Shown here: positions 33,362 through 45,939 of the stretch, piece by piece
How positions within the stretch are numbered: position 1 is the first letter of the stretch
Layout of the letters: every line of letters starts with the position of its first letter
Assembly (NCBI RefSeq): GCF_014705615.1
Contig: NZ_JACXJA010000005.1
Coordinates: 248,001-312,000 of the forward strand
Direction of reading: 5' to 3'
Length of the DNA: 64,000 bases
Source of the DNA: Paenibacillus oceani
GTDB lineage: Bacteria > Bacillota > Bacilli > Paenibacillales > NBRC-103111
Position numbers and translations under genes: made by a program
Notes under the pieces: model-generated
The model's input: only the letters and a program-made list of their open reading frames with translations
Database searches by the model: none
What the model was told of the DNA's origin: nothing

Positions 33362-34900
33362 TCAGTAATAGTCCTGATTCGTCAGTACGGCGGCCGCCGG
33401 TTTCTTTTCTCCGAATATCGCTTCCGCCAGCCGGATCGCCTTGAGCATCCCCATCGCTTTGTTCACTGTTTCCTTGTACTCCATCTCCGGTACGGAGTCC
33501 CAGACGATGCCGGCTCCCGCTTGGATGTACGCCTTGCCATGCTTGAAGATAAGCGTCCGGATCGTGATGCACGTATTCAGATTGCCCGAGAAACCGAGAT
33601 AGCCGATGGCCCCTGCATAGGCGCCGCGCGCCTCCCGCTCGATCTCCGCGATAATCTCCATCGCACGCAACTTCGGAGCGCCCGATACCGTTCCCGCCGG
33701 CATGCAGGATATAAAGGCGTCGAAGAAATCTTTATCTTCACGCAGCTTGCCGGACACGTTGGACACGATATGCATAACGTGAGAATACCGCTCGATCTCC
33801 ATGTACATGTCGCACTTGACGGAGCCGAATTCAGCGACCCGGCCGATATCGTTGCGCCCCAGGTCGACCAGCATGAGATGCTCCGCCCGTTCCTTCTCGT
33901 CGGCCAGCAGCTCCGCTTCAAGCGCCGCGTCTTCCTCCGGCGTTTTGCCTCTTGGCCGCGTTCCCGCGATCGGTCTCGTCTCCACCCGCTGTCCGTCGAC
34001 CTTCACGAGCGCTTCCGGGGACGTTCCAACGATGACTTCGTCGTCCATTTTCAAATAATACATATACGGCGAAGGGTTCGTCGCACGCAGCACGCGATAC
34101 ACATACAGCGGGGAAATCTCCGTCTCGATATGGAATCGCTGCGAGAGGACGACCTGGAATATATCGCCCGCCCGGATGTATTCCTTGGCCTTATCGACGT
34201 TCGCCATGTATTGTTCCTTGGTCAGATTGGAGTGCACCTCTCCCAAATCCACATCGGCCGGAATCGCATTTTGGATGGAGCGCTGGGCGATCGGCTGCTG
34301 CAGACGTTCGATCGTGGCGTCGATCTTGGAACAGGTAAGCCGGTACGCTTCGGCGATTTGCGCGTCCGTCGCGTGTTTCCCGATATGAACGTTGCCGATC
34401 ACTTTCACCTGCTGCTTGAAATGGTCGAACACGATCACCTGATCGCAGAACATAAACTCGATGTCGCTCATATTCAAATCGTCATGCCGATGGGCCGGAA
34501 GCTTCTCGTAATGCTGGAGCAGATCGTATCCGAAAAATCCGATCGCGCCGCCTGTAAACGGAGGGAAATCCGGCAGCGCCGGACTCGAATACCCGCGCAG
34601 CAGCCCTTTCAACGTCTCGAGCGGCTTGTCGTCCACGACTTGGCGAACGCCGTTCAGTTCGATCTCCATCCGGCCGTGCTTGCCTTTCACCATCAGAAAA
34701 GGGTCGGTTCCGATAAACGAATATCTCGCCCACTTGACGCCGCCCTCCACGCTTTCCAGCAGGAACGCCCGCGGTTCCTCGTAAAAATGCTGAAACACCC
34801 GGATCGGCGTCTCCGTATCCGCCATCAAATTGCGTACGACCGGGATTAAGTTGTGGGTTTGGGCTAGCCGGATTACCTCATTGAGTTCTGGCGTGTACAT
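33362..34900 (-). CDS. trpE: Anthranilate synthase component I
   Basis: Converts chorismate to anthranilate with ammonia from a glutaminase partner. The chorismate-binding blocks are PAGTVSGAPKLRAMEII, IAGTRPRGKTPEED and QAGAGIVWDS. An in-frame ATG at 34909 lies only 2 nt after AAGGAG; ATG 34900 is 11 nt after it and is preferred, giving 512 aa (MYTPELNEV). The gene is preceded by a leader of about 380 nt with a TRAP-type site and a terminator, so its transcription is gated by tryptophan. Confidence 0.95.
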   Translation of the reverse strand: MYTPELNEVIRLAQTHNLIPVVRNLMADTETPIRVFQHFYEEPRAFLLESVEGGVKWARYSFIGTDPFLMVKGKHGRMEIELNGVRQVVDDKPLETLKGLLRGYSSPALPDFPPFTGGAIGFFGYDLLQHYEKLPAHRHDDLNMSDIEFMFCDQVIVFDHFKQQVKVIGNVHIGKHATDAQIAEAYRLTCSKIDATIERLQQPIAQRSIQNAIPADVDLGEVHSNLTKEQYMANVDKAKEYIRAGDIFQVVLSQRFHIETEISPLYVYRVLRATNPSPYMYYLKMDDEVIVGTSPEALVKVDGQRVETRPIAGTRPRGKTPEEDAALEAELLADEKERAEHLMLVDLGRNDIGRVAEFGSVKCDMYMEIERYSHVMHIVSNVSGKLREDKDFFDAFISCMPAGTVSGAPKLRAMEIIAEIEREARGAYAGAIGYLGFSGNLNTCITIRTLIFKHGKAYIQAGAGIVWDSVPEMEYKETVNKAMGMLKAIRLAEAIFGEKKPAAAVLTNQDYY

Positions 34901-34947
34901 ATTCGTCATCTCTCCTTCGCCGCAGTTGGCCTGTAGCTATATGAATG

Positions 34948-34976
34948 CAAAAAAACCTCTACCGAAGTAGAGGTTT
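34948..34976 (-). terminator. trp leader attenuator terminator
   Basis: On the minus strand AACCTCTAC and GTAGAGGTT form a perfect 9-bp stem with a TTCG tetraloop followed by seven T residues, about 45 nt before trpE. Its placement inside the leader, not after a gene, makes it an attenuator. The 5' arm can alternatively pair with GTAGAGTTT in the upstream TRAP-type triplet region. Confidence 0.9.
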
Positions 34977-35279
34977 GAATATCAATCGGTTGGGGAACAA
35001 GCGTTCGTTTCGAAAAATACGCCAAACGAAAACAATTACGGCGACGTTTCACTCCGGGACTTCTTCTCCTGCCAATGAAACAATCGGCTTTTCGCTTGTC
35101 GGTCCGCAGGTTCCGCGGGTAACTTCGACCGCTCCCGGTCAAACATCACCCAACCTATGAACATTCTCGAAACAACTGAAGCTACCGGCGGCTCCCGCCT
35201 TCGCTTCACTCGGCTGTACTCCACTCATCTCGACTAATTCCTAAACTCTACTGTTCTCGACTTGCCTTGTTCATGCTTT
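34977..35279 (-). promoter_or_regulatory. trp operon leader RNA
   Basis: About 300 nt of untranslated leader between the predicted transcription start (near 35279) and the attenuator. In order it holds the NAG-triplet run and a GGCGG-GAG-CCGCC hairpin nested in GAAGC...GCTTC (near 35176-35205). A GACCG...CGGTC hairpin near 35130 and a GC-rich region around CCGCGG follow. No T-box consensus is seen. The intervening structure may bring the triplet region close to the attenuator. Confidence 0.75.
35199..35258 (-). promoter_or_regulatory. Predicted TRAP-binding site (NAG triplet array)
   Basis: On the minus strand twelve NAG triplets start at 5-nt steps (35258, 35253, 35248, 35243, then a 7-nt step to 35236, 35231, 35226, 35221, 35216, 35211, 35206, 35201). 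Eight are GAG or UAG, two CAG and two AAG. TRAP is known to bind about eleven (G/U)AG triplets separated by 2-3 nt. The array begins about 20 nt after the predicted transcription start, and mtrB is in the window. Confidence 0.85.
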
Positions 35280-35285
35280 CCACTT

Positions 35286-35315
35286 ACTATACAACAGATC
35301 CAAGAAGACCGTCAA
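35286..35315 (-). promoter_or_regulatory. Sigma-A promoter of the trp operon
   Basis: TTGACG (35310-35315), 18-nt spacer, TATAGT (35286-35291) on the minus strand, immediately downstream of the aroH stop codon. B. subtilis has its internal trp promoter at the equivalent place in the aro supraoperon. Confidence 0.8.
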
Positions 35316-45046: not shown

Positions 45047-45580
45047 CTAATGCTGAAGCCGGTCCATCCATCTGTGGGTGTACGTCAGGTTAAAGCTCGA
45101 GACGATATATTGCTCTTTCGTCCCTTTCAGACGGCCGCCGGCGGCAGCTCCGTCCGCATCCGACCGTTTGGCGTCCATAGCCATCAGCAGTTGGGGGACG
45201 CCCTTTGCTTGGGACGGGTGCTCCATAAGGCGGACGAGCATCCGCTTTACATTTTTCGTTCCGGCAAATCCCGCTTGCGACAAAACGTACAAATCGTCAT
45301 ATACGGTCTCGGATTTCATTCCATCCGGACCGGATCTCAGATCAACCGACAAGATCGAGTCGCTCCATTCGACATGGGCGATATCCAGTTGAAGCGGCAG
45401 CTTGACGAGCAGGTCGACCAGATTGCGGTCGCTCAGCATAACGGCCGACTCCGGGCGAAATACGGGCGTGTCCCCCGCCCCTCCTGCAAGCGATCCGTCA
45501 AGCTTCGGCACGATGGACAACAAAGCGGCGATACCAATCGATACGAACGCGACGACGAGAATCCGGTAAACCGACTTCAA
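45047..45580 (-). CDS. Unknown membrane-anchored protein between mtrB and hepS
   Basis: 177 aa from a TTG start at 45580, chosen because AGGAGGG lies 7 nt upstream. A single N-terminal hydrophobic segment (ILVVAFVSIGIAALLSIV) acts as an anchor or uncleaved signal, leaving about 150 extracytoplasmic residues. SVDLRSGPDGMKSETVYDDL and the region around TKNVKRMLVRLME suggest an alpha/beta domain. I do not recognise the family. It is separated from mtrB by a terminator and from hepS by a promoter, so it may be monocistronic. Confidence 0.7.
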   Translation of the reverse strand: MKSVYRILVVAFVSIGIAALLSIVPKLDGSLAGGAGDTPVFRPESAVMLSDRNLVDLLVKLPLQLDIAHVEWSDSILSVDLRSGPDGMKSETVYDDLYVLSQAGFAGTKNVKRMLVRLMEHPSQAKGVPQLLMAMDAKRSDADGAAAGGRLKGTKEQYIVSSFNLTYTHRWMDRLQH

Positions 45581-45653
45581 GGCACATCCCTCCTGCAGGG
45601 GCTCTACCCTGTACATTCGGTGCATTTACACCCCTATCTCATTGTACAAATGA

Positions 45654-45699: not shown

Positions 45700-45939
45700 C
45701 TACTCGTCCGTTTCGACCGTACCGTATCGGGTCATGACGACCGCTTTTCCGCGGATTTTGACGGCGGACGTATGCTCCGTGAACTGGGCGATCATCACTT
45801 CGCCTTTATCCAGCTTCTCCGTATGATGGAACCGTGTATCGTGTCCCCGTGTAAGCCCGATCACATGAACCCCGTTTTCTTTCGCCTTGATGACGAAGTA
45901 GTCGCCTTGAATCGTCCCGTTTTCTTTGTCCTGGGCCAT
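45700..45939 (-). CDS. mtrB: Tryptophan RNA-binding attenuation protein (TRAP)
   Basis: TRAP forms an 11-subunit ring that, when loaded with tryptophan, wraps (G/U)AG-repeat RNA and terminates or blocks translation of trp genes. The 79-aa protein begins [15 protein letters not shown] from an ATG preceded by GGGGAGG. It contains [20 protein letters not shown] and [16 protein letters not shown]. Compared with B. subtilis TRAP, the RNA-contacting E36, K37, K56 and R58 correspond to E41, K42, K61 and R63. Tryptophan-pocket threonines and the TEHTS loop are also kept. The likely target is the trp leader about 10 kb downstream. No anti-TRAP gene is visible. Confidence 0.96.

Follow-up and report, generated by a model that had tools for sequence, protein, structure and literature searches.

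A probable TRAP-controlled trp attenuator with a long-range antiterminator in Paenibacillus oceani

The trp leader of Paenibacillus oceani lies between aroH (chorismate mutase, TIGR01796) and trpE in a 64-kb (64,000-nt) stretch of the genome, which is called the window here and within which all coordinates are counted. As judged from its sequence and from RNA folding models, this leader is probably a TRAP-controlled attenuator with a long-range antiterminator. Without tryptophan, much of an early array of NAG triplets would pair with the 5' arm of the terminator and with the stretch that precedes it, while the RNA in between would fold on itself and draw the two segments together, and RNA polymerase would continue into trpE. 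With tryptophan, TRAP, probably as a 12-mer, would wrap the array and release the arm, and the freed arm would allow the terminator to form and transcription to stop. At the level of sequence the leader has the features of a TRAP leader and appears to work like the trp attenuator of Bacillus subtilis, of which it is a variant that lacks the compact layout. It shares with the leader of the B. subtilis trpEDCFBA operon the TRAP gene, the early (N)AG array, the terminator before trpE and a predicted antiterminator that is mutually exclusive with the terminator (PMC3913778). Among the open-access papers listed, no title or opening abstract line deals with the trp leader of a Paenibacillus. The features are collected in Table 1.

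Table 1. Features of the trp leader and its surroundings in the window; all leader features are on the minus strand.
Feature	Position	Strand	Basis or remark
trpE	33362..34909	-	first gene past the terminator; TIGR00564
Terminator, AAACCTCTAC-TTCG-GTAGAGGTTT, U-run of 7	34949..34976	-	stem 34976-34953
Extended antiterminator, 3' half (flank and terminator 5' arm)	34966..35002	-	predicted helices; swap tests
Self-folding intervening RNA, likely scaffold	35007..35173	-	predicted fold
Array-end hairpin (TGAAGC with GCTTCA, GGCGG with CCGCC)	35177..35208	-	predicted fold
14 NAG triplets, predicted TRAP binding site	35199..35268	-	step count and shuffles
Extended antiterminator, 5' half (inside the array)	35213..35252	-	predicted helices; lineage matching
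GTAGAGTTT, array segment pairing with the terminator 5' arm	35243..35251	-	predicted fold
Promoter-like sigma-A site, TTGACG-18-TATAGT	35286..35315	-	sequence match
mtrB (TRAP)	45700..45939	-	start assumed at an internal ATG

The array is composed of six and then eight triplets, joined by twelve steps of 5 nt and one of 7 nt (twelve spacers of 2 nt and one of 4 nt), and an extra GAG stands beyond the 14th triplet after another 7-nt step. The first-pass annotation had given both kinds of step correctly but had counted only twelve triplets, a figure that agrees with the 5-nt steps and not with the triplets. Eight of the 14 are GAG or TAG, four AAG stand at the two ends of the array and two CAG inside it. 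A TRAP leader is expected to carry at least about 11 NAG triplets with spacers of 2–3 nt in the trp 5' leader, and that many are present here; none of 60 dinucleotide shuffles of the entire window gave a chain of more than six triplets, against the 14 of the real sequence. The promoter-like site is near chance by itself, as shuffled sequence contains 0.6 such sites on average and the real one has a single site; its GTATAGT is unchanged in all five leaders of the genus. The transcription start is estimated at about 35279, which places the first triplet 17 nt past the -10 box and about 11 nt past the start, closer than the distance of about 20 nt given earlier.

The gene for TRAP itself, mtrB, is located about 10 kb upstream of the leader in the same orientation. 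A comparison of its product with the structure bank gave 15 distinct TRAP chains as matches, including 3zzl, the TRAP of Bacillus halodurans (PMC3184956), and the product keeps F32, E36, K37, D39, K56 and R58, which are given as the RNA-binding residues of TRAP in the same source. Together with an array beyond chance, this mtrB with its six RNA-contact residues bears out the earlier description of the leader as having the layout of a TRAP site. Moreover, the protein has Lys15 and Thr72, which are linked to 12-subunit TRAP rings, and 12-mers have been suggested for a Paenibacillus sp. (PMC3184956); the TRAP of the window is thus probably a 12-mer, as read from these residues. Both residues are shared with B. 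halodurans, and so is a surplus of triplets (19 there, 14 in the window). The leader of that species differs in its predicted attenuator, a weak hairpin with mismatches (PMC3913778). Of 299 sampled Bacilli 210 have TRAP, as do 33 of the 34 searched genomes of the Paenibacillus order, the exception (G009) being 70% complete.

Residue 60 was considered as a marker of the long layout and rejected, because Lys is common at this position in other Bacilli too. Among the 58 Bacilli TRAPs compared (two of the 30 from other Bacilli were left out), 51 have Lys60, and Glu60 of B. subtilis appears to be the exception; the E60K variant of the B. subtilis protein binds RNA and fails to terminate (PMC4027176). 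As for further TRAP targets in the same genome, TrpP had no match and the start of pabA has just three NAG triplets in a row. Anti-TRAP had no match in five genomes of the genus, a difference from B. subtilis. Between mtrB and hepS there is a 192-aa open frame (45047-45625, minus strand) with no NCBIfam or Pfam match. In PMC7773762, mtrB is named among genes for indole acetic acid.

At the other end of the leader, a terminator hairpin whose U-run corresponds to seven T at 34955-34949 is located upstream of trpE, as in TRAP leaders, and about 40 nt separate its end (34949) from the trpE start. The segment GTAGAGTTT of the array (35251-35243) can pair with AAACCTCTAC of the terminator 5' arm (34976-34967) in 9 bp with one bulged C; this pairing was found in the window just as the first-pass annotation had stated, and it is present in the predicted fold as well. 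In the predicted fold of the window RNA up to the terminator, 24 further interrupted pairs join 35241-35213 with 35002-34977, and the antiterminator is therefore best read, on this model, as about 24 bp longer than the pairing first proposed. In the same RNA the arm is sequestered with a mean pair probability of 0.82 when the array is free and of 0.16 when the array is masked, with minimum free energies (MFE) of -106.7 and -75.0 kcal/mol, so that masking the triplets is predicted to free most of the arm, and two leader conformations are predicted. When the window RNA is folded at full length, the MFE structure contains the terminator with and without masking of the array, and the unmasked RNA reaches -113.7 kcal/mol against -110.2 kcal/mol for a forced antiterminator, which is 3.5 kcal/mol worse. 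Since the terminator wins in the full-length fold, the switch must be kinetic, acting while the RNA is being transcribed and the 3' arm has yet to appear. Control of translation by sequestering of the trpE ribosome site under TRAP, as in the compact B. subtilis type, found no support: the predicted access to that site is 0.67 whether or not the array is masked, by prediction in one genome. An antiterminator which overlaps the array and excludes the terminator is thus found by prediction and, as described below, by a swap test.

The spacing of these elements is what sets the leader apart. In B. subtilis the array ends some 15–20 nt before the attenuator hairpin. The trp leader of that species is 203 nt long, with the attenuator hairpin at +108 to +133 (PMC3913778). 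In contrast, 222 nt separate the 14th triplet from the terminator stem in the window, in agreement with the more than 200 nt claimed earlier, and the antiterminator encloses a folded domain; the distance is 215 nt when the extra GAG is included, as in the leader statistics below, and 189 nt when the array is taken as a loose chain. The relatives compared were the best 80 of 162 named relatives together with leaders from the family and order of the window, and leaders from other Bacilli were taken as well (34 leaders from 39 genomes with a match). From 211 leaders, nine duplicates were dropped, leaving 173 distinct leaders from the Paenibacillus order and 29 from other Bacilli; one genome (G005) has trpE, with its leader outside the set. 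Array and terminator are both present in 170 of the 173 leaders of the order, the other three (L141, L177 and L179) being left out for having no terminator or a weak array, and ten of the 29 leaders of other Bacilli were left out for having no clear array or terminator, so that 19 were scored. The distance between array and terminator is 59–405 nt (median 135) in the 170 leaders of the order and -1 to 111 nt (median 24) in the 19 of other Bacilli. A terminator close after the TRAP site, which defines the compact layout, is not found in the window by a strict rule, and the contrast with the compact B. subtilis leader that the first-pass annotation had drawn extends across the order. Going by these sequences, the long layout characterises the Paenibacillus order. 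When the terminators of the two groups are compared by five measures of strength, only the longest U-run differs (median 7 vs 6, p 0.003).

In these leaders the 5' arm of the terminator carries CTCTAC in 148 of the 170, CTCCTGC in 14, CTCTGC in three, CTCCCGC in three and another sequence in two. Of the 148 leaders whose arm is CTCTAC, 134 have GTAGAG in the array region. It is this 6-bp core GTAGAG/CTCTAC that recurs, and not the 9-bp bulged pairing as a conserved unit; no clear rule was found for the changes beside the core. In four leaders (L043, L045, L046 and L049) the terminator ends about 240 nt before trpE, compared with about 50–110 nt in most near relatives, and in L007 (P. cymbidii) two successive terminators with CCTCTA arms end 160 and 42 nt before trpE. 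In L009, L012 and L016 the trpE ribosome site GTAGAGGAGAG resembles the 3' arm of the terminator, and the 5' arm might pair with it too.

The pairing of arm and array is predicted in most relatives. Over the 170 leaders the sequestering of the arm is 0.67 with the array free and 0.32 with it masked, and it is higher with the free array in 158 of them; 41 arms are still sequestered to at least 0.5 despite the masked array. Folding alone is weak evidence, because the arrays are purine-rich. The probability of pairing between arm and array is 0.67 for native arrays, 0.52 for shuffled arrays, 0.54 for shuffled flanks and 0.57 for the arrays of other leaders, and the native value exceeds the swapped one in 45 of 63 lineages; shuffled and foreign arrays still pair the arm (0.52–0.57) since the arrays are purine-rich and the arms pyrimidine-rich. 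Such numbers are what would be expected if the array and the terminator were independent, the terminator ending an upstream aro transcript and the pairing being nothing but purine-rich arrays meeting pyrimidine-rich arms. In the swap test, partners were exchanged between lineages and the average of each array and of each arm was removed; with the arm alone against the array, the matching by lineage is not significant (2597 of 20000 permutations, 63 lineages), nor is it within the 15 lineages with other arm types or the 48 with CTCTAC, and this too is in keeping with independence. However, when the flank (the 45 nt before the terminator stem) is taken together with the arm, a lineage's own array is better than swapped ones by 3.3 kcal/mol (63 lineages; z -7.6; 0 of 5000 permutations) and better than expected in 49 of the 63 lineages. 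The flank alone gives z -2.7 (25 of 5000), and a control piece taken from mid-interval, at most 54 nt long, gives nothing (z -0.7, 1271 of 5000). In 33 more distant lineages the flank and arm again give z -4.7 (0 of 10000), with the control at z -0.4. These results indicate that the matched element is the whole terminator-proximal segment and not the six-base core, which shows no covariation because it is too invariant. Considering this strong lineage specificity beside a null control, and the retention of CTCTAC in 148 of 170 arms, which seems more than the function of a terminator alone would need, the independence of the two elements is very unlikely.

On the covariation of the two arms the alignments give a divided answer. 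In five of seven clusters (51 of 99 leaders) RNAalifold, unprompted, places every one of the six CTCTAC columns in pairs with GTAGAG, and it finds no long-range consensus in the other two (35 and 12 leaders). Changes on both sides are found in six of 129 long-range pairs. Thus the flank with the arm is matched to the array by lineage, while arm-only swaps are not significant and compensatory changes are few; the pairing of arm and array is matched by lineage when the 45 nt that lead up to the stem are counted with the arm.

The RNA enclosed by the antiterminator is the least conserved part of the leader. In the window it is predicted to be closed by a 10-bp helix (35173-35164 with 35016-35007), and the stretch 35185-35003 folds more stably than its shuffled versions (z -3.1, 1 of 200); with other borders z is only -1.2, so that the signal varies with the choice of borders. 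The mean z of 57 lineages is -1.25, and 14 lineages are below -2. In seven cluster alignments no segment is less conserved than the interval, although the promoter stretch equals it in one, and the array, flank and arm are more conserved than it in all seven (99 of the 170 leaders), by a margin of 0.01–0.08 in one; furthermore, its length varies widely among relatives. The first-pass annotation had offered a scaffold or a second sensor for this stretch. If it were a second sensor (a T-box, a riboswitch or a leader peptide), to which the terminator would answer as well as to TRAP, the better-than-shuffled fold in the window would be in its favour; yet no Rfam family reached its gathering score in the window or in 20 of the retrieved loci (three matches are far below threshold), the leader thus having no match to a curated RNA family by which a T-box or other Rfam riboswitch would be recognised, the T-box motif is absent from the 170 leaders (TGGTGG occurs in three), and length and sequence are poorly kept. 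We consider this the least probable of the alternatives, a highly improbable one. A scaffold is plausible on the folding models and, with so little conservation, likelier than a sensor, and a loosely constrained scaffold fits the interval best.

Another alternative concerns the place where transcription stops. TRAP could stop or pause RNA polymerase right past the array, which has been proposed for B. subtilis, the distant terminator being secondary, and it is known that B. subtilis TRAP terminates without the attenuator hairpin if an A+U-rich stretch follows its site (PMC3913778). In the window the array-end hairpin takes up the last two triplets and is followed by TTGTTT (35175-35170), a match to TTNTTT, the motif of NusG-dependent pausing (PMC12288461); hairpin and TTGTTT may together make the polymerase pause, which would leave TRAP more time for binding. 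As a proximal terminator this hairpin was rejected, since a strict scan found none and the -16.7 hairpin of a loose scan runs into the array and has an interrupted T stretch. A scan of the 70 nt past the array for hairpins followed by a T-tract gave 19 of the 170 leaders of the order (7 of 63 lineages) at dG < -10, against 3 per 170 in shuffles, and 36 of 170 (15 lineages) at dG < -8, against 7.5, so that some members of the order, a minority, may stop or pause transcription at a second, proximal site as well. These hairpins above the shuffle level made us lower slightly our confidence in TRAP-controlled long-range attenuation, and likewise in the order-wide reading given below, and raise slightly that in a proximal stop. 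Even so, a stop right past the array as the main mechanism is unlikely: such hairpins occur in only a minority of the order, against 14 of 19 leaders of other Bacilli at dG < -10 (16 of 19 at dG < -8), the window hairpin has no strict T-tract and uses the last two triplets, so that bound TRAP would oppose it, A+U is just 47% in the 30 nt past the core array of the window, and the distal terminator, which is matched to the array, is kept by 170 of 173 leaders. Long-range attenuation under TRAP is thus still the probable reading.

For B. subtilis it is still debated whether TRAP remodels the RNA or acts on RNA polymerase (PMC3913778, PMC4027176); a direct action on the polymerase has been favoured there, partly on the grounds that the attenuator is dispensable (PMC3913778) and that the E60K protein binds RNA without terminating (PMC4027176). 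In the leader of the window, RNA polymerase has left the array about 200 nt behind on arriving at the terminator, and therefore the two models predict differently; a contact between TRAP and the polymerase is less likely at this distance, and looping of the RNA could still allow it. Tentatively, as a possibility that we take seriously but that stays somewhat short of probable, TRAP may throughout the order be purely a switch of RNA structure at a distance, in which a variable folded insert holds the binding site and the terminator together, contact with the polymerase is unneeded and the terminator is truly intrinsic. If this is true, nature has separated in the Paenibacillus order two roles of TRAP that are entangled in B. 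subtilis. Under the main reading, too, the leaders would represent an RNA switch that tolerates 59–405 nt between its halves.
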